Of a stretch of 21,788 nucleotides of DNA, positions 2,731 to 18,868 are shown piece after piece. The stretch is from a virus. The stretch covers positions 1 through 21,788 of the IMG/VR virus record IMGVR_UViG_3300017964_000097. One strand, 5' to 3'. The notes below the pieces were generated by a model. The model was not told where the DNA came from and ran no database searches. It saw only the letters and a list, made by a program, of their open reading frames with translations. The translations under genes and the position numbers were made by a program. Position 1 is the first letter of the stretch; each line of letters opens with the position of its first letter.

Positions 2731-3849
2731 TCAAAGCTCCGCGTTGATGATGATTTTATCTGTTGCAGCGTTACCTGTATACAAGAAGCAAGGGTTGTAA
2801 GTGGTGAAAACGGCAGATGACGTAAAAGCAGCAAGGATGGATCCAGTGCGCGTTGCATAGACATTGGTCCAGCTAGTCAAGGCAACGTTAAAGCCGGACC
2901 CGCTTACATAAATTGTTCCCTCATTAGTCAACGTAGGAATTGCTCTGAGGGGAGCTGGCATGGTAAACACCACCGACCCTGCGCTTGCGGTTGAGGTGTA
3001 ACCAGTGGCGAACGCTGCAAACCCATTCGCAGCACCATCGCCTTCGTAAACCATGCAGTAACGCTGGCACCTCTGAAGCTCATCACCATAGCTTTTAACT
3101 TGGAAAGGCGTAGCCTCGGTTCCTTCTTCAAACTGAACACCAGTTATTTCCCATGTTGCAGAAGCAGTTGTTATAACCCCATTCTGCACGTGGCCGTAAG
3201 CAAAACCAGTGGTTGCGTAAGCTCCCCAGGAAGAGCTATCAGTGCTTGTCCAATCGGTTCCAGCGCATAGAATAAAATCAATTTCTAAACCGTTTCCGTT
3301 ATCATCATTAATTACACCCGTCGTATCCGCAGGCACGGAGATTATCTTTTTTTCCCAAGTATTGGCAGAGTTGACCGTATAAGTAAGAGTGATATTACGA
3401 CTTGCGTCTTCTCGATACAGGCAGAGGCCAAATGTGCCGGTTATAGAAGAACGCACCCAAAAAGAGAGCCTTGTCTCCTTAGCGTTGGCTGTACCGTACG
3501 CTAAACGTTGACAATCGTGGGCTTCAATTCGATACGTGAGATAGAGTAATTCATTAGCATCGACAGTTGTCTCAGCTGTCCCTGTCGTTAAAAGTAGACT
3601 GTTGGTAAAACCTGCGGGTGGTGTAGTACTGCTTTGTGAAAGAGTACCATCGAACTCATCAAGGTTGGCTGCAAGGTAACGGAATCGATCAACACAATAT
3701 CCATCATTCACACCGTCGTGTGCAACGGTCAGAGAAGTACGTCTCTGGGCTACTCGCATCCCTCCATTCAGCACTAAATTGGCATCGGGGCCGACAACAT
3801 CAAAAACGTTATCGGCCAAGCGTCCTGCATCAACATCTGTAAGTGCCAC
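2731..3849 (-). CDS. Tail fibre protein with carbohydrate-binding-like fold (372 aa)
   Basis: The start is GTG 3849, strongly supported by AGGAGG eight bases upstream. The N-terminus contains NLVLNGGMRVAQRRTS and YCVDRFRYLAAN. The middle has LSFWVRSSITGTFGL, and a later segment reads ITGVQFEEGTEATPF. Near residues 255-268 comes ELQRCQRYCMVYEG. That succession (NGGM.vaQR..., DRF, a jelly-roll-like beta domain, GVQFE.G..ATPF, L.RCQRY) is a common layout in fibre/receptor proteins of marine tailed phages. In those proteins the beta domain is thought to bind carbohydrate. The last 100 residues are Thr/Ser/Ala-rich and beta-prone and may form the distal tip. Its stop lies immediately after the chaperone-like gene start. 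Fibre identity is confident; ligand unknown. Confidence 0.88.
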   Translation of the reverse strand: MALTDVDAGRLADNVFDVVGPDANLVLNGGMRVAQRRTSLTVAHDGVNDGYCVDRFRYLAANLDEFDGTLSQSSTTPPAGFTNSLLLTTGTAETTVDANELLYLTYRIEAHDCQRLAYGTANAKETRLSFWVRSSITGTFGLCLYREDASRNITLTYTVNSANTWEKKIISVPADTTGVINDDNGNGLEIDFILCAGTDWTSTDSSSWGAYATTGFAYGHVQNGVITTASATWEITGVQFEEGTEATPFQVKSYGDELQRCQRYCMVYEGDGAANGFAAFATGYTSTASAGSVVFTMPAPLRAIPTLTNEGTIYVSGSGFNVALTSWTNVYATRTGSILAAFTSSAVFTTYNPCFLYTGNAATDKIIINAEL

Positions 3850-4616: not shown

Positions 4617-6083
4617 CTATCCTAATGCAATTGCAATTGCGGTCGCAAAATCCTGTGTAGCCATTGTCCCTGTTTCATCAGGAACTGTGACCGTTCTATT
4701 TGCAGTTAGGGTATCAGTCGTAAATGTACTCGCAAAACTTGAAGTTCCTCCGCCCCTGCCTTGAATAACGATCCCGTCCTGTGTTGCAGCTTGACGGAAG
4801 GTCTGACCAGTCGCGTTAGTGAATGTGTTAGCACCTGTAAACGCGTTTGCAGTGCCTAGCAACGCTAATGTCCCGTTTTCATCAGGGACGGTCAGGGTGC
4901 GGGTTGTGCCAGTTGTGATGCCTGATGCGCTAAAGGCAATCTGTTTTGTATTGTCGGCTGTGTTCCTAACACGGAAACCGCCATCATTTGTAACGACTGC
5001 AGTAGAAGTAACTGATGTCAGGCCAGCCAGAGTTGTCGAGCTACTGCCAAGAGCGATACCGGTTGTACCAACCGTGATCGAGCTATTCGCTAATTGCGAA
5101 TTGGGAATAGCGTTAGTACTGAACTCTCCGGTGGAACTGTTATAAGTAAGACCTGAACCAGTTGCAACACTGAGTGACTCAAGCAGAGCAACCGTACCAC
5201 TCAAATTCGGAAGGTTGATTGCCCGGTCAGCATCGGGATTGATGACCGAGAGTGTAGTTTCATGTGCATCAGCACCGCTCCCCTCAAAGGTGATTCCACT
5301 GGAGTTGAGGAGGATGCTGTTTGCTGCGTCAGTTGCACCGATCGTGACCGCTGTACTGATGACCGAAGTCAGGCCATCCAGAGTTGTGGAGCTAGCGCCG
5401 AGAGCAATACTTGTTGTACCAACTGTGATCGTGCTGTTAGCCAGGTTGGCGTTGGCGATCGATGAGCCAGTAGAAAGGAGGGTTCCGCTGTTATCAGGTA
5501 AGTTCAGCGCCCGATCTGCTGTCGGATCAACAACATTGAGGGTTGTCTCAAAGTCGTTTGCTGTTGAACCTTCGAAGACAATACCAGTCGAATTGAGCAG
5601 AATGCTGTTAGCAGCATCAGCTGTACCAATCAGAACCGAAGTGCTACCGATGAGGTTGGTTGATGTAACCGAAGTTAAACCACCAAGCGTCGTTGAGGAT
5701 GCACCAAGGGCAATCGCTGTGGTGCCGATGGTGATATCGTCGTTCGCTAATTGCGAATTGGGAATAGCATTGGTTCCGAATTCGCCGGACGTGCTGTTAT
5801 AAGTTAATCCTGAGCCGGTTGCGACACTGAAGTGGGCACGGACTTCACTGGCAGAAGGACCAGTGTAAGTAATGACGCCGCTTGTACTGTTGTAACTAAG
5901 AGAACCGTCGCCACCAGAATCCGTAACAGATATCGCAGCACGCGCTCGCGCATTGGTGAAGTACTCATTAGTGCCTTCAGAAAGGTCAGATGTTGAGTTA
6001 CCAGCAAAATCTAACTTGTCTGTAGGAGTGTTTACCTCCTGAAATAAGCCACTAACGAGACAAATAGCCTTCCTAGTTGCCAT
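4617..6083 (-). CDS. Repeat-rich tail fibre protein (488 aa)
   Basis: The N-terminus resembles a fibre anchor and includes DLSEGTNEYFTNARARAAIS, a motif found in many marine phage fibres. The rest is built from repeated blocks. One is SVATGSGLTYNSTSGEF followed by AIPNSQLANxxITxGTT and IALGASSTTLxGLTSV, present in whole or part three times. A second, DAANSILLNSxGIxFEGS followed by ETTLxVxxPxADRAxNLP, is present twice with degenerate relatives later. A third, RTLTVPDENGTLALLG / RTVTVPDETGTMATQD, closes the protein. The repeats are beta-prone and typical of a fibrous trimeric shaft. It begins after a 77-base gap that follows the tandem paralogue pair. The fibre call rests on composition and repeat type; the receptor is unknown. 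Confidence 0.85.
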   Translation of the reverse strand: MATRKAICLVSGLFQEVNTPTDKLDFAGNSTSDLSEGTNEYFTNARARAAISVTDSGGDGSLSYNSTSGVITYTGPSASEVRAHFSVATGSGLTYNSTSGEFGTNAIPNSQLANDDITIGTTAIALGASSTTLGGLTSVTSTNLIGSTSVLIGTADAANSILLNSTGIVFEGSTANDFETTLNVVDPTADRALNLPDNSGTLLSTGSSIANANLANSTITVGTTSIALGASSTTLDGLTSVISTAVTIGATDAANSILLNSSGITFEGSGADAHETTLSVINPDADRAINLPNLSGTVALLESLSVATGSGLTYNSSTGEFSTNAIPNSQLANSSITVGTTGIALGSSSTTLAGLTSVTSTAVVTNDGGFRVRNTADNTKQIAFSASGITTGTTRTLTVPDENGTLALLGTANAFTGANTFTNATGQTFRQAATQDGIVIQGRGGGTSSFASTFTTDTLTANRTVTVPDETGTMATQDFATAIAIALG

Positions 6084-6160: not shown

Positions 6161-6625
6161 TTAAGCTAGCGTAATCGGCGGCTCTATTTGTATCATAAAT
6201 TCAGATGTTGAGGCAGCTTCTCCTACCCTGGTTAGATGATGTCCTGCAGTCGTTGGCGGAGTCTTCGTAATTGCACCTGCCGTCGCGTTCGAAAGATAAT
6301 ATAAATCGCCAGCGTCGTATCCAGATCCAGCAAGCGTACCCACAATCAAAACGCGGACTTCTTCTCCGGCGAGTTTTGAAGTCTGCGCGAAACCAACAAC
6401 TGTAGCTTTGTCTAGCGTGTCATTGGCAACGGCACGTCCTACCTTACCATCGCTGGACCGCGAATAAAGAGCTTCGCCTTGCGAAACGTCCTCAAATCCC
6501 TCTGCTAAAAAACCAGCCACAGCGTAGACAGTGCGTCCAGCCATTGTTGATTTCAAATCCAGTAAAACCTGTGTAAACCCTTCAGCATTAGGTGAATAGG
6601 GTTCGTAATTACTAACTCCGGCCAT
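6161..6625 (-). CDS. Virion structural protein, tandem paralogue B (154 aa)
   Basis: This is clearly related to the preceding 175-residue protein. Both contain G(D/E)ALxxRxSDGxVG, then TLDxATVVGFA, a VxVLxxGxL strand, a (P/A)GDxYYLS-type turn, KTPPTTAGHHLTRVGEA and a final IQIEPPITL. The N-terminus has one Tyr-Glu-Pro...Asn-Ala-Glu-Gly segment followed by a hydrophobic helix (VLLDLKS). The first half is otherwise shorter than in the paralogue. The conserved core is a small beta-barrel-like module of a type common in phage virion accessory proteins. The ATG overlaps the stop of the paralogue by one base (TGATG), implying coupled translation. Probably a fibre-base or decoration protein; the exact role is unknown. 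Confidence 0.8.
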   Translation of the reverse strand: MAGVSNYEPYSPNAEGFTQVLLDLKSTMAGRTVYAVAGFLAEGFEDVSQGEALYSRSSDGKVGRAVANDTLDKATVVGFAQTSKLAGEEVRVLIVGTLAGSGYDAGDLYYLSNATAGAITKTPPTTAGHHLTRVGEAASTSEFMIQIEPPITLA

Positions 6626-7152
6626 CAGCTTAGAAGAATTGGTGGCTCAATCTGAATACTGAAGGATGTCGTTGTGGCACCTTCTCCAACACGCGTGACA
6701 AAGTGACCTGCAGAAGTAGGAGGTGAGAGGGAGATTTCACCAGCTGTGGTGCTTAAGAAGTAAATGTCACCAGGATCAATACCTGTTTGATCGTCTAAAA
6801 GACCTGCAACTAAAACTTTCACAGTGGTGCCAGAAGCTGCATCATCGTCTGCAAAACCAACGACAGTAGCCTCATCCAGAGTGCCATCAGCCTGCGCTAA
6901 GCCGACCTGACCATCACTTGCTCGCATAAACAAGGCGTCACCGTTACTAACCGCTTCAAAGGTGGTGGCGTCGAAACCAACCCTGGTCGGGGCAAACGCT
7001 GGGAACCCCTCTTTCATATCAATGATCGCGTCGACCAAGCCTCGGTAATTCGGCTCGTACGGCTGCCGAGTCATGGTGAACCCATTACCCTGCATCAGGT
7101 CAACGAGGACAGCTATAGCACCTTCTATATTCGGTTCGTAACCAGTAGCCAT
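6625..7152 (-). CDS. Virion structural protein, tandem paralogue A (175 aa)
   Basis: The first of two adjacent homologous genes. The N-terminus carries a short internal duplication: YEPNIEGAIAVLVDLMQG at residues 5-22 and YEPNYRGLVDAIIDMKEG at 32-49. The core from about residue 60 contains GDALFMRASDGQVG, LDEATVVGFADDD, GDIYFLSTTAGEISLSPPT and GHFVTRVGEGATT, ending IQIEPPILLS. The two N-terminal repeats look amphipathic and may provide docking surfaces, while the core looks all-beta. The start at ATG 7152 has AGGT eight bases upstream. It is the first minus-strand gene after the isolated plus-strand gene. No enzymatic residues are evident. Confidence 0.8.
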   Translation of the reverse strand: MATGYEPNIEGAIAVLVDLMQGNGFTMTRQPYEPNYRGLVDAIIDMKEGFPAFAPTRVGFDATTFEAVSNGDALFMRASDGQVGLAQADGTLDEATVVGFADDDAASGTTVKVLVAGLLDDQTGIDPGDIYFLSTTAGEISLSPPTSAGHFVTRVGEGATTTSFSIQIEPPILLS

Positions 7153-10193: not shown

Positions 10194-12299
10194 TCAATAG
10201 TATCCGCCCTGGACGTTAACGTAGAAGCCGTTGGTAAGTGCTGTCGTTCCGCTAACGGCAGCGTAGAGTGCTTGACCGCGCTGAAGAATAAGTCCACGTG
10301 TCTTCGGGGACACGTTGCTATTCTGACTGGTGAAGTTTGAACCAGCCTGAACGACCGGGTGGTTGATCAAAGGCAGGACACCTTCTTCAGTCAAGCTGAA
10401 GCTCTGCTTACCTGGAACCGCAGAAATAGATGCAACAAACAGCGGCTCAAATTGGGTGAGAGCCGTCAACGTGCCTGTATTGACTAAATAGAAACAAATA
10501 TCAATAGGAGCCTGGTAAGAAACATCTCCTGTAGTGACTACGTCAACTTCAGAAGAGCCAGTAAATGTAGTTGGCGTAACCGCACTAATTGTGATTGTTT
10601 CGTTGGTTAGACCAGGAGAACCAGTGGTGTAAGTGACATAGGCTTGCTCACCAACTTGCAAGTTGTGACCGGTGGATGTAACGGTTACATTGGAAGCCGT
10701 GACGTTAGAAGCAGTAAGAGCAGTGGGGTTAAACGTCGAAGCATCGATTTGCTGATCAGGGAAAGTAGTACCGTTGATCGCTGCTGGTGTAGTACCAGTA
10801 ATAGTCGTGGAGGCAACCGTCTGTGAAACACTCACGGTATAAGTACCCGCACCACCTGTGCCTGTACCAAGACCAGTAATCGTCGTGCCGTAAGTAACGC
10901 CAGAACCGGTGAGAACCATGCCCACTGTAAATGTGCCAGTAACGGTGCCACCAACAGTCAAGGTTGTGCCAGAGATGCTAGAAGCGTCGCCAGAACCCTG
11001 GGCAAAGTTCTGAGATGTGCTGACTGTGTAGGTACCTGCGCCACCTGTAGTCGCTGAGCTGATCGTTGTGCTTGCAACAGTCTGCGAGTTGTTAACGGTA
11101 TAAGTGCCTGCGCCTCCTGTACCGGTTAGCGTGCCTGTAATAACAGTGCCTGCGGTTACGCCTGCACCAGAGATTGCTTGGCCAACTGCAAAGGTGCCAG
11201 TGACCGTGCCGCCGATAGTTAGAGTAGTACCGGCGATGCTTCCAGCGCTGCTAGAACCTGTTCCGAACGCAGTGATGACTGTGCCCGCTGTGACACCAGC
11301 GCCGGTAAGCGTCATGCCGACAGCAAACGAGCCTGATGTAGCACCACCGATAAGAAGTTGAGTACCTGTGATGCTCGATTGTGAAGACGTTGCGTTAGTG
11401 ATTGCTAAGGCAGAAGTATTAATTGCCGTGGTGGCAACCGTCTGAGAAGCGCTAACTGTGTAAGTACCAGCGCCGCCTGTTCCTGTCAGCAGTGCGGTGA
11501 TGATGGTACCCGCAACGACACCGGTACCGTTAATTGCTTGACCAACCGCAAAATTACCTGTTACAGACCCACCAACCGTAAGGGTTGTGCCAGAAATGCT
11601 TGACGAGCTGGAAGTACCTGCTTGGAATGTTGTAAATGCAGGGCTGATTGTGTAGGTACCAGCACCACCTGTACCACTTCCTAATGCAGTGATTTGAGTG
11701 TTCGCAGGAATATAATTACCAGTCAAAATCTGATTGACTGCAAAACTTCCTGTTATCGAGCCTCCAATGGTCAAAGTTGTTCCAGAAATGCTCGATGCAG
11801 TCGATGTACCAGAACTCAAAGCAGGACCCGACGGCGAAACCGTGTAAGTGCCTGCACCACCTGTACCGGTGCCTAAACCGATGATCTTGGTGCCTGCCGT
11901 GATGCCAGTACCAGAGATAACCTGGCCAACGGCAAAGGCTCCCGTGATCGTGCCACCGACGGTTAAGAGGCTGCCGTTCACTGTTGCCGTAGATGCGGTA
12001 GCAGCAGTTGTTGTACCTGCTAACAGCGTGGTGGCATAAGTTGCAGTAACTGCTGATTTAGCGCCGATGAAATTGTTAACAAGTTGGCTATACCGAATCC
12101 AAATCTCATCGATATATGCCCCACTGATTGATGTATCCGTTAAAGAGGAATCAACATCAAAGACTTTGGTCGCGTTGCCAATCGCCGAAGGCACCAAGCT
12201 CGTCGCAAAAGGCTGTCCAGAAGCAGTAGTAAGAAGAGTACTGGACGTTGCCGGACGGTCAACGAGCAGGGGCTGTTTGTTTGTAGAGGTAGAGCTCAT
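10194..12299 (-). CDS. Repeat-containing virion protein (701 aa)
   Basis: Six tandem copies of an approximately 55-residue repeat occupy residues about 105-500. The consensus is [15 protein letters not shown], FAVGQxIxGTGVxAGTxI, a loop, then [19 protein letters not shown]. Copies start near 105, 170, 234, 309 (shortened), 354 and 441, with an extra GGAGTYTVS fragment near 419. A single E1-FCCH-like module follows at about 543-590. The flanks ([26 protein letters not shown] before, and [14 protein letters not shown] through [10 protein letters not shown] after) look like two halves of a small beta domain into which the repeats and the FCCH module were inserted. The ATG overlaps the stop of a 49-residue gene (ATGA). 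Probably a surface-exposed head decoration or fibre protein; function not demonstrated. Confidence 0.85.
10794..11990 (-). repeat. DNA tract encoding six tandem ~55-residue repeats
   Basis: Recurring coding blocks of roughly 165-200 bases within the 701-residue gene give near-identical peptides ([24 protein letters not shown]). Synonymous sites differ between copies, so this is not a recent perfect duplication. The fourth copy is shortened and an extra partial copy follows the fifth, as unequal recombination would leave. Confidence 0.8.
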
Positions 12300-14026: not shown

Positions 14027-14257
14027 TCAGTTCTTTTTCTCGTACTCATCTTTGGTCATCCACTTCTCTTTACCCCAGCGGGTCAAATCTTTCTGTTTCT
14101 CGGTTTTACCGCCTTTGTAGCCGCCGCCCTTCTCCTTATATGCTTTGGCCAGCATCTGAGCTTTACGAGCGCTCCACTCGCCCGATTTACCGCCCTTAGA
14201 GCCTGCTTTAATGCGGTTCTTCAGACGCTCACGTAATTCTGGCTTGGTATATGCCAT
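14027..14257 (-). CDS. Small basic protein, DUF5872-like (76 aa)
   Basis: The sequence AGSKGGKSGEWSARKAQMLA, then KAYKEKGGGYKGGKTEKQKD and LTRWGKEKWMTKDEYEKKN, fits the small conserved domain of the DUF5872 type. That domain has a Gly-Ser-Lys-Gly-Gly-Lys...Trp-Ser-Ala-Arg-Lys-Ala-Gln core and a W(x)3-4W C-terminus. It occurs widely in phages and giant viruses with no established activity. Its high Lys/Gly content suggests nucleic-acid binding, but this is not shown. The start overlaps the stop of the 93-residue gene by one base (TAATG). Family name given from memory of the motif, with moderate confidence. Confidence 0.8.
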   Translation of the reverse strand: MAYTKPELRERLKNRIKAGSKGGKSGEWSARKAQMLAKAYKEKGGGYKGGKTEKQKDLTRWGKEKWMTKDEYEKKN

Positions 14258-14538
14258 TAGAACTGATTCTGAATAGGCCTCTTATTAAGAATAACAGGCG
14301 GAATGTTATCAGAATGCGAGCGTGAAACCTCACGCATGTAAGCAGGATTGTTTAGCTGGAAACGAGGATCGTTGCTTCCGTTATAGCCAACCACGTAAGA
14401 ACAAGGATGGCTCTCATCTCGGCGCGTTTGATTAAATGGATCACTGAACCCGGCTGTAGTCAGCGTGTAATCGTTGTACATATTTTGATACGTCACCGGA
14501 AAACTTTGTGTATAGCCGGGCACAGAAGCGAATCTCAT
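14257..14538 (-). CDS. Small protein of unknown function (93 aa)
   Basis: A Tyr/Asn/Pro-rich protein beginning MRFASVPGYTQSFPVTYQNM. It contains FSDPFNQTRRDESHPCSYVV, one cysteine, and a C-terminal Arg-Pro-Ile-Gln-Asn-Gln-Phe. There is little predicted helix and no membrane segment. The aromatic-rich, loop-heavy composition is common in small virion proteins. The start overlaps the end of the peptidase gene (TGATG) and the end overlaps the start of the DUF5872-like gene (TAATG), so it sits in a translationally coupled chain. I do not recognise a family. Confidence 0.72.
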   Translation of the reverse strand: MRFASVPGYTQSFPVTYQNMYNDYTLTTAGFSDPFNQTRRDESHPCSYVVGYNGSNDPRFQLNNPAYMREVSRSHSDNIPPVILNKRPIQNQF

Positions 14539-15116
14539 CAGCTCATGAAGGTAGGTTGCTGGAAAGCTTGTTTCAGCATTCCAACAGCATCAATAGAGGG
14601 GGCGACAACCTCTGGCTTCTCAGTACGCTTAGTCAAAAAGTCAGCTAAAAACTCATCAGCTTCTTGCTTTTTCTGACGTAGCACCATCTGAGCAAGCTCT
14701 TCTTGGTCAACAGACGGCGCGGCAGTCTGCATCGGCTGCTGCAGTCCAGGCATCGTATCAAGCGACATGCCTTGTTGATTCTTGTATCGACCTGTCGCCA
14801 GCCATTCAACTTGCTGCGGCGTCATCTGGACATTATTCCGGAGCGCCAGGTGGACATGAGTATCGTGACCCGGATCTCCTGGGCCTAAGGCTTCAGTGAA
14901 GAGTCCAAGTTTCTTAGCACGTTCTGAGAGCCCCTTGGTGCGCTGTTGCCACTCACCTGGACGCCAGTCAGTAACGTCGATCGCCTCGCCGTAGTAATGG
15001 TGCGACTTGGGAGCATGCTTGCCGACCTTGCCAGAACCAAAGGCAGGGTTCTCTCCAACACGCAGTCCATATTTCTCCAGCTCTTTACCGAGGTCGACGA
15101 TCGAATACTGCTTCAT
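14538..15116 (-). CDS. M15-type peptidoglycan peptidase (D-Ala-D-Ala carboxypeptidase/endopeptidase-like) with C-terminal tag (192 aa)
   Basis: Zinc-peptidase motifs of the M15 (VanY/DacD-type) fold are visible. SHHYYGEAIDVTDW at residues 38-51 gives the H-x6-D pair (H40 and D47), and GDPGHDTHVHLAL at 80-92 supplies the third ligand region (H87/H89). Such enzymes cut peptide cross-links or the terminal D-Ala in peptidoglycan. Residues 100-145 are a Gln/Met-rich linker. Residues about 153-192 form a C-terminal module (FLADFLTKR, then SIDAVGMLKQAFQQPTF) that also ends the lytic transglycosylase encoded just upstream. The gene starts two bases after that gene's stop. It may act as a virion-borne entry enzyme or a lysis enzyme; its place inside the structural block and the shared tag favour virion association. 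Confidence 0.85.
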   Translation of the reverse strand: MKQYSIVDLGKELEKYGLRVGENPAFGSGKVGKHAPKSHHYYGEAIDVTDWRPGEWQQRTKGLSERAKKLGLFTEALGPGDPGHDTHVHLALRNNVQMTPQQVEWLATGRYKNQQGMSLDTMPGLQQPMQTAAPSVDQEELAQMVLRQKKQEADEFLADFLTKRTEKPEVVAPSIDAVGMLKQAFQQPTFMS

Positions 15117-15118
15117 AG

Positions 15119-15769
15119 TTATAGATCCTCAATAAAAGTCGGTGCAGAGCCAAAAGCAGTCTTCAAGAGTGAAACAGGATCAATTGAAGATTGCACCTGT
15201 GGCAACTGTTGTTGAGCTCTTTTCTTAAGAATAAAATCGCCCAACATCACATTGGGATCAATCTTGGGAAGATTCTCAGCTAAAAGTTTGATTCCAGTCG
15301 ATGCTTGTTCCGGTTCAGGTTGTACAGGTTGCTGAGCACCTAACGCTTCCGTAAAACTAAACTTATCTGGACCAATGATCTTGTTGACATAAGCATTTGT
15401 CTCCGCATACCTTCTACTGGCTTCAACTGCACCAGGGCCAGCATTGTAAGCACGCAGAGCTTTCTCGGTAGCCTGGCGAAGCTTGACAGGATCAGTCTCC
15501 TCACCAGGGCTTTTGCCACCAAGGAAGGTCTTAGTGTAAGCAGCCATATTCTTAGCTGCTGCATCAAGTGCTGCGACAGGATCATCAGGGTTTACACCCC
15601 AGCCACGCGCAGTTGCTGGCATAATCTGTGCAATGCCACGAGCACCCGCATAGCTGACGGCTTGAGGATTAAAACCAGACTCAGCTTCAATCTGGCGTTC
15701 AAAAACCTGAGGTAAAAGACCGTATTTTTTTGCTTTTTCTCTTGCGACCTGGCGGAAATCTATTGGCAT
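15119..15769 (-). CDS. Lytic transglycosylase (SLT family) with C-terminal tag (216 aa)
   Basis: The catalytic domain spans residues about 5-135. The catalytic glutamate is E30 in RQIEAESGFNPQAVS, followed by GARGIAQIMPATA and later RAYNAGPGAVEA, the three hallmark blocks of the Slt/goose-lysozyme-like fold. It cleaves the MurNAc-GlcNAc bond of peptidoglycan. After a Pro/Gln/Glu-rich linker, residues about 176-213 (LGDFILKKR, then SSIDPVSLLKTAF and APTF) form a module shared with the M15-type peptidase downstream. I placed the start at ATG 15769, just after the preceding gene. The frame also has an ATG at 15928 that would add a hydrophobic 53-residue leader but overlap that gene by 137 bases. 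Neither start has a good Shine-Dalgarno, so the N-terminus is uncertain. Confidence 0.88.
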   Translation of the reverse strand: MPIDFRQVAREKAKKYGLLPQVFERQIEAESGFNPQAVSYAGARGIAQIMPATARGWGVNPDDPVAALDAAAKNMAAYTKTFLGGKSPGEETDPVKLRQATEKALRAYNAGPGAVEASRRYAETNAYVNKIIGPDKFSFTEALGAQQPVQPEPEQASTGIKLLAENLPKIDPNVMLGDFILKKRAQQQLPQVQSSIDPVSLLKTAFGSAPTFIEDL

Positions 15770-15791
15770 GACGGTTGCTAACGGCTTTGCT

Positions 15792-16271
15792 TCAGCGGAA
15801 GTTATTTTCCAGCATGAGACGAGTACCAACGGCAACGTCAGCAGGGCCAGGGAGGGCTTGAATAAATTCAGAACCTTCCCGGTTGAACCGATACCGAGCT
15901 TGCTCGGGATTTCGGTAATTCGGGACATAAAGATGCATGGCTAAGCGATCCGTCTCGTAGAGATAGATTTGCGTCCACGTCTTTAGAGTGTCCTTAAAAT
16001 CCGAGGTGGCGATCGTACGATCGACATCACCCGCAATGCTTTCAATGCGGCTACGAGGAACTGTATCGTTATTGACGCTGCCGGTCATGTCGGTGCGTTT
16101 TTCAGCCTCGTCACACCTGCTGACCTGTTCGACAATTTTCGAATACCAGTACGAATCTTGGATGTTGTCGAGAGCTTCCTCGAGACGCGCTAAATCACCA
16201 GCGGGAACCGAAGTTAGGTTATAACCGAGGTGCCAGCGAACCTTAGATTTAAGGAAACTATCTAATTGCAT
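15792..16271 (-). CDS. Probable head-completion/connector-type protein (159 aa), family not recognised
   Basis: The N-terminal half is helical with an adaptor-like look: SFLKSKVRWHLGYNLTSVPA, then GDLARLEEALDNIQDSYWYS and KIVEQVSRCDEAEKRTD. The middle (DFKDTLKTWTQIYLYETDRL) leads to a Tyr/Asn/Arg-rich end with YVPNYRNPEQARYRFNREG. A small mostly helical protein lying between the capsid genes and the wall-hydrolase genes is the usual place for a head-tail adaptor. That is an inference from position and predicted structure only. It follows a 7-bp inverted repeat in the 71-base gap after the helix-hairpin-helix gene. No Shine-Dalgarno is evident. Confidence 0.72.
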   Translation of the reverse strand: MQLDSFLKSKVRWHLGYNLTSVPAGDLARLEEALDNIQDSYWYSKIVEQVSRCDEAEKRTDMTGSVNNDTVPRSRIESIAGDVDRTIATSDFKDTLKTWTQIYLYETDRLAMHLYVPNYRNPEQARYRFNREGSEFIQALPGPADVAVGTRLMLENNFR

Positions 16272-17731: not shown

Positions 17732-18868
17732 TCACTCGACGATGGTGAAGGCACAGGTCACGAAGTCCTTGTTCAGGTTCGCGAAACCGGCGTACAGCTG
17801 CCAAATCAGGATGATGAAGCGGCTGAAATCGTCGTTGTTGTTGATCAGAACCTGAGCATTAGGACCACCGATACCAACGCCAACAGCCTGAGGACCGAAG
17901 AACAGACCAGCGGGGGTGGTGCGGGTAGCAGCACCGGAGCTGAGGTCAACGGTGGCGGTCTTGTCGGGGAAGTTGGTGGACTCGAAGAAGCGGACACCTT
18001 CGAACACGAAGCCGGAAGGCATCACGGGCTCGCCAGCGACGAACTGGGCTTGGCCATACTGACCACCGCCGTAGATAGCACCGTTGGGACCCATGGCGCC
18101 CATCAGGGGGTTGCCTTGGCCCATGCCGGGATAGCGGGCGACTTCACGGAAGCCTTGGTCAGCACGCAGATCCTTCATGAAAGAGGGATCAGCGATACAA
18201 CGGTAGTAACCGTCAGCGAAGACGGGAACGTTACGCTTACGCAGGGACTTAACCACCTCGAGGAGGTCAGTCTTCACGTTGAACTTGAAGCGCTCAGAAG
18301 CGTACTCAGTTGCAGAGTAAGCAGAGACGGTAGAACCAGACTTGCTGTGGCCGTTGGGGTAGTAGTAACCACCCTGGGTGTCGGAGGACTGACCACGTGC
18401 TTCAGCCTTGAACAGTTCGTCCAGGAACACGCGATCGCGCCAGCGGCGATAGTCATCCAGCAGGGTCAGCGAACCGATGGACTGGTGGAACATGTTGAGG
18501 TTCCCGGTGTCCAGCAGCAGACGCTGAGCGGTCATCAGAGTCTCGCGAGCGATCTTGAAGGTGCTCGGGAGGTTGGTGTTGTTCGGGTCAGCAGGACCGG
18601 TGTACTCACGCAGAGACACCAGCACTTTGTCCTTAACGATCGACCGGCTGTTGGCGGTACCGATGGTTTGATCCTGGGTACGCTCACGGCTGGTCTTCGT
18701 GCCAGGGTTACCGAAGAAGCGGTAACGATCCAGCTGAACGGTCTGACCGGGCTGTTTGGTGAAGTCGTGGACAACTACGGGCTCAGTGGCCATCTCCACG
18801 ATATAAGCTGGGTGGGGACGGTACAGCTCCGCGCCCAACAGCTTGGGAAAATCGTTATCAATAAACAT
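17732..18868 (-). CDS. Major capsid protein, N4gp56-like (378 aa)
   Basis: Size, position after a scaffold-like gene and G+C-rich codon use fit the major coat protein. Features resembling the N4gp56/P22-coat group include an N-terminal arm, then QPGQTVQLDRYRFFG. The middle has NVPVFADGYYRCIADPSFMK and DLRADQGFREVARYPG, followed by GNPLMGAMGPNGAIYG. An FEGVRFFESTNFPD strand follows, then GLFFGPQAVGVGIGG, and DFSRFIILIWQLYAGFANLN leads to a final KDFVTCAFTIVE. The order (HPxxxxDLRxD...NPLxxGAxG...G..(F/I)xES...LFxGxQA...GMxWxxxxxx.DFxxxxxxx) matches that family. The family assignment is by pattern only. It is transcribed with the 272-residue gene between two terminators. Confidence 0.75.
   Translation of the reverse strand: MFIDNDFPKLLGAELYRPHPAYIVEMATEPVVVHDFTKQPGQTVQLDRYRFFGNPGTKTSRERTQDQTIGTANSRSIVKDKVLVSLREYTGPADPNNTNLPSTFKIARETLMTAQRLLLDTGNLNMFHQSIGSLTLLDDYRRWRDRVFLDELFKAEARGQSSDTQGGYYYPNGHSKSGSTVSAYSATEYASERFKFNVKTDLLEVVKSLRKRNVPVFADGYYRCIADPSFMKDLRADQGFREVARYPGMGQGNPLMGAMGPNGAIYGGGQYGQAQFVAGEPVMPSGFVFEGVRFFESTNFPDKTATVDLSSGAATRTTPAGLFFGPQAVGVGIGGPNAQVLINNNDDFSRFIILIWQLYAGFANLNKDFVTCAFTIVE
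18431..18438. other. HIP1-type palindrome GCGATCGC (copy 2)
   Basis: Second exact copy of the octamer, inside the capsid gene. See copy 1 at 17446; alone it has no demonstrated function. Confidence 0.5.

Follow-up and report, generated by a model that had tools for sequence, protein, structure and literature searches.

The window, by which we mean the whole 21,788-bp stretch of DNA analyzed, covers an uncultured phage record (G000). Among isolates, its DNA has one near relative, Synechococcus phage S-EIV1 (73% over 359 bp). On the minus strand, the conserved gene p159 (15792..16271; phrog_29158), which served as an independent anchor, lies directly upstream of a lytic transglycosylase (LT) gene (15119..15769 with its start corrected; 216 aa; PF01464). 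This is followed by a gene for an M15-like (LAS-type) metallopeptidase (14538..15116; 192 aa) and, directly downstream of it, by p93 (14257..14538), a weak candidate partner. Both hydrolase genes and p159 sit between the major capsid protein (MCP) gene (17732..18868, minus strand; phrog_1357, E 1.9e-16) and the tail-fibre genes. The location of the MCP gene thus places the pair within the virion structural block, with tail-fibre genes on its other side.

The LT features a recognizable peptidoglycan-hydrolase domain, an SLT domain at about 15392-15748 on the minus strand (Pfam PF01464, E 6.9e-19), an assignment by homology from which its activity is predicted. It also matches phrog_342, annotated 'internal virion protein with endolysin domain', and T7 gp16. 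The listed open reading frame starts at 15928, so that 137 nt of it lie within p159; the N-terminal segment 'MSRITEI...SAEA' is conserved p159 read out of frame. Because of this overlap and a conserved internal ATG, we moved the start to the ATG at 15769 (MPIDFRQ...), which is likely the true one. An N-terminal signal peptide or lipobox was considered and rejected, the apparent leader being out-of-frame p159. The 53 N-terminal codons of the listed frame (15770-15928, minus strand) resemble a signal peptide carrying a lipobox, which presents a risk of false leaders in automatic gene calling.

The neighboring peptidase retains the M15 zinc ligands, HxxxxxxD and HxH, with H40-D47 and H87/H89 invariant in an alignment of 25 sequences (A4). 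Its profile matches the Zn DD-peptidase 1lbu weakly (E 0.0018), its Pfam Peptidase_M15_3 score falls under the cut-off, and a PDB fold search with its model returned weak, mostly chance matches, 1lbu among them at a probability of 0.87.

Both enzymes end in a similar segment. The LT tail (15122..15265, minus strand; 48 aa, KIDPNVMLGDFILKK...SIDPVSLLKTAFGSAPTFIEDL) runs to the stop codon as LGDFILKK...SSIDPVSLLKTAFGSAPTFIEDL, and the peptidase tail (14541..14669, minus strand; 43 aa, KQEADEFLADFLTKR...SIDAVGMLKQAFQQPTFMS) as LADFLTKR...PSIDAVGMLKQAFQQPTFMS. Aligned locally, the last 60 residues of the two proteins give a best BLOSUM62 score of 61 (z 8.1), which none of 20,000 shuffled controls attained (mean 23.7, sd 4.6, maximum 49). 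The last 48 residues of the LT and the last 43 of the peptidase are homologous. This bears out the initial annotation, which had proposed a common C-terminal module on two adjacent wall hydrolases, and the motifs lie exactly where it had placed them. An all-against-all comparison of the C-termini of window open reading frames, in which the tail was not used as a query, recovers the same pair (E 7.9e-6), and this tail-blind scan within loci recovers it in relatives too. Within its own record, the LT tail is matched by just these two reading frames. When profiles of the LT tails and the peptidase tails are compared, hhalign gives 99.1% (E 1.7e-18).

Two further pairs of C-termini were listed in the window scan. 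One consists of opposite-strand reading frames at 4807-5799 that overlap a repetitive 488-aa gene. The other, p175/p154, is alike over all 110 residues compared (E 4.5e-36); these adjacent 175-aa and 154-aa genes (6161-7152, minus strand) are paralogues, and their duplication is kept in several relatives. Elsewhere in the window, a 701-aa protein (10194-12299, minus strand) contains a long glycine-rich repeat stretch that is missing from its orthologues of about 265 aa.

The full alignment of tails yields the approximate consensus T-[FY]-I-[IV] ... DFLxxY ... P-x-[IV]-x-S-x-[IF][DN]P-x-x-[ML]LT-x-AF-x-QTPNYL-end, conserved close to the stop codon. The pattern of about 38 residues that had been described at the outset is real, but it covers the conserved final part of a module that extends further back: in relatives, a strand-like T-[FY]-I-[IV] segment, together with a linker, stands before it. 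AlphaFold2 models of both enzymes, built on shallow alignments of 25 sequences, predict the catalytic cores mostly well and the tails with low confidence, in pLDDT blocks of about 34-52 (LT) and 47-72 (peptidase). Disordered and dissimilar tails had been anticipated as evidence against a shared module; confidence is indeed low, yet each tail is predicted to form two short helices, first at the DFL and then at the LLKxAF motif, in the LT and the peptidase alike. The models fit a flexible peptide that perhaps becomes ordered once bound. They give no support for a folded wall-binding domain, although their low confidence and shallow alignments leave room for one. A Pfam search of the tails found no domain, and a search of PDB chains found no match better than E 0.48.

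The module recurs widely in related phages. With a profile built from 29 tails, each of 13 tail-bearing records gives exactly two matches, in every case on adjacent hydrolases; this holds in records of 78 and 82 kb, which contain no further match elsewhere. Across loci, which overlap, 144 carry two tails, 21 carry one and none carries more. The first profile drew on tails found via the enzymes, so its counts alone are partly circular; the within-genome C-terminus scan and sampling via p159 are independent of it. The latter yielded 449 relatives, of which 80 were kept. Among distinct p159 regions of sufficient length, pooled from this sampling and the earlier loci, 59 have two recognized tails, four have one and 35 have none. 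Many of these 35 belong to the S-EIV1 branch or hold pairs with another, still mutually matched tail, such as ...ELME / ...ELMT in L158 and ...SPADIASAISAAA / ...SPTDIYKALAAAA in L178. One or no recognized hydrolase follows p159 in L162, L163, L211, L212, L169, L200 and L203. Many loci are overlapping slices of one record, and non-redundant counts were therefore dereplicated by tail similarity. The initial annotation had suggested a profile search and foresaw, as grounds for abandoning the idea, no further occurrences and random loss of the tail. Instead, more than 100 related loci, many of them overlapping or drawn from one record, have the module, and it always sits on a pair of neighboring wall hydrolases. 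Searches of INPHARED isolates and GTDB species genomes with the tail profile returned no match, and all 25 IMG/VR loci obtained with the tail query fall, by gene pairs, in this phage group. The tail-bearing pair belongs to a large uncultured cyanophage group.

The enzymes that precede the tail vary. At least five glycan-cutting types occupy the first position: SLT, SLT_3, SleB-like (phrog_12490, without a Pfam match and labeled by eye), phrog_90 endolysin-type and other lysozyme-like proteins (phrog_4928, weak SLT). The second holds an M15-type or an apparently circularly permuted M23-type peptidase. All such profile matches denote homology to families, and the activities are predicted. Among non-redundant genomes, SLT is paired with M15 in four and with M23 in 13, SLT_3 with M15 in eight and with M23 in 12, and the SleB-like type with M15 in two and with M23 in one; other lysozyme-like types take the first position in four. 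Nine type combinations stand before the same kind of tail, and the loci collected via p159 thus show catalytic domains exchanging freely around a constant tail.

The M23-type partner of relatives, which resembles tape-measure domains, looks circularly permuted. In L015:4170-4802 and its relatives (alignment A5), the usual C-terminal PHLHFEV...VDP segment is N-terminal (PHLDVRVLKDGKYVDP), before HxGxD, and its HxH motif reads HxD. Two segments of the M23 structure 6jn7 match this protein, but with their order exchanged, and the match of the second is very weak. PF01551 gives no match to it, probably because of the permuted order.

The two tails of a genome also evolve in step. They match in 43 of 44 non-redundant adjacent pairs, each with a z of 3.7 or more; L140 alone falls short (z 2.0). 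Across 50 non-redundant genomes, the alignment score within a genome is 88.4 against 53.6 when partners are permuted (0/10,000); this set includes six S-EIV1-type arrangements in which the gene taken as the second member is not the real partner, and 44 genomes without them. Tail identity likewise averages 0.44 within a genome and 0.315 when permuted (0/5,000; 28 genomes). Plain divergence after an old duplication would leave a tail no closer to its own-genome counterpart than to a foreign one; the closer relationship seen argues for matched evolution. Two genomes bear what is evidently recent gene conversion of the tail: in L055 the two tails are identical at 145 of 150 nt, their last part fully so, and in L052 at 137 of 150 nt. 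DNA identity was rejected as the general cause of matching, being clear in these two alone, with a few moderate cases. In most other genomes the tail DNA has diverged and the proteins still match. Where synonymous change is not saturated, pairwise tail dN/dS values of 0.03-0.10 indicate that the tails are under purifying selection.

The tail is best described as a family of genome-private variants, not one fixed sequence. Other variants (ELM-end, SPxDI type) occur in L158, L155, L178, L130 and L139; these too are matched between both enzymes, and they show the tail sequence to be replaceable. The within-genome co-variation of the two tails leads us to infer one phage-encoded partner common to both.

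We therefore favor, at odds of roughly one in two, an exchangeable docking tag through which both enzymes bind one phage partner, likely a virion component, for joint action at entry. On this reading a glycan cutter and a peptide cutter, neighbors in the structural block, would end in the same flexible, helix-forming peptide. The peptide of each would bind the same phage-encoded partner, most likely part of the virion, and both enzymes would be loaded at, and act at, the same point as the phage breaches the wall. The earlier proposal of a targeting or docking tag is upheld in that a shared module is kept while enzymes change; its common partner gains indirect backing from within-genome co-variation. 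Gene position and relatives point to a virion location for both enzymes. Entry rather than lysis is suggested by gene position, by the likeness of the LT to T7 gp16 and internal virion proteins, by the tape-measure likeness of the M23 type and by a separate lysozyme-like protein. This T4-lysozyme-like protein, a candidate for the lysis role, is not among the tail-bearing reading frames and occurs in all eight related records tested, a set apart from the fragmentary window record. In G003, the record of L034, the lysozyme-like match (47040-47501) is read through one TGA stop. More tentatively, the tail may form a per-phage address code, kept matched by selection and gene conversion, into which any hydrolase could plug and reach the same virion site.

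The adjacent gene p93 was examined as the partner. It accompanies the tails in 50 of 52 testable loci. This co-occurrence is suggestive but fails in L025 and L077, and descent confounds it; we did not retain p93 on these grounds. In L077, a 207-aa cysteine-rich reading frame (2939-3559), HNH-like by eye, occupies its place. L034 and L040 have the window gene order, a different matched tail and no p93, with other small genes there (alanine/proline-rich in L034).

Exactly two tails per genome and their within-genome matching would also be expected if the tails bound each other, forming an LT-peptidase hetero-complex that needs no third docking protein. We consider this rather unlikely, as L162 and L211 have a single recognized hydrolase after p159, with a tail-like end. 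A constant C-terminus behind swapped catalytic domains is, moreover, the classic layout of modular lysins, and the tail could be an uncharacterized cell-wall-binding module, as in modular endolysins. However, the models give the tail low confidence and no compact fold, it lacks a Pfam or PDB chain match, and the endolysin-like protein that these genomes encode separately is not one of the tail-bearing proteins. A chemically conserved ligand would also not predict genome-private matched variants, and we regard such a module as unlikely.

Removable targeting segments occur on virion proteins of other phages, and the flexible tail, with its pattern conserved near the C-terminus, could similarly be an assembly or processing signal, either a chaperone site or a prodomain removed in head maturation. 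No prohead protease was recognized among the window proteins searched, and no conserved cleavage motif was noticed on unsystematic inspection, which makes this a distinctly unlikely explanation. A passive relic of a gene duplication, with domain replacement coming afterwards, kept alike solely by recombination between neighboring copies, would account for the homology and draws on gene conversion that does occur, but strong purifying selection, protein matching despite diverged DNA in most pairs and the rarity of tail loss among adjacent pairs make it highly improbable.

If the docking-tag reading is true, these phages follow a simple modular rule for equipping virions with wall cutters and for swapping them without losing assembly. 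The lineage is abundant in environmental data, with 449 loci carrying the anchor gene p159. Matched tails would offer a testable tag and could help to pick out the virion enzymes of uncultured phages.

The enzyme pair itself is of a known kind, candidate virion-associated hydrolases, and for its matched, swappable tail literature searches, largely of openly readable papers, returned no description of a tail both shared and matched between two such enzymes. Modular endolysins carry one C-terminal wall-binding module behind interchangeable catalytic domains. The present system differs in having two enzymes per genome with matched tails and no predicted folded binding domain; Pfam, PDB and pLDDT results reveal no known family of folded binding domain at the C-terminus. 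S-EIV1 (KJ410740) has partly the same structural gene set (portal, MCP, HhH and p159 orthologues) and also carries genes for an M23-family protein and a tail lysozyme. It differs in gene order and in its tails, whose sharing is just hinted at (LSQALNP / LKNALNP). Within the S-EIV1 branch, whose tails differ, such sharing is at most weak, and a tail profile common to the branch was not supported (hhalign 22.8%, from a set that wrongly included one non-hydrolase row, L007).

Encapsulins offer a parallel for the tag. In family 1, a short C-terminal targeting peptide, with the consensus SDGSLGIGSLKRS, loads unrelated enzymes into an HK97-fold shell (PMC8346489). Here too, one short C-terminal peptide stands on unrelated enzymes, and the pair is encoded near the MCP gene. 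The phage tail is longer and varies from genome to genome, its DFLxxY...SxIDPxxMLTxAFxQTPNYL pattern, compared by eye, does not fit the encapsulin consensus, and the resemblance is one of proposed mechanism. Virion-associated peptidoglycan hydrolases have been reviewed (PMC6116005). The T7 gp16 core transglycosylase, to which the LT domain is related, and the phi29 tail-knob enzyme are likewise phage wall cutters encoded in the structural block. In these known examples the enzyme is embedded in a larger structural protein, whereas the tail-bearing pair consists of two small, free-standing enzymes with a short C-terminal tail in common.
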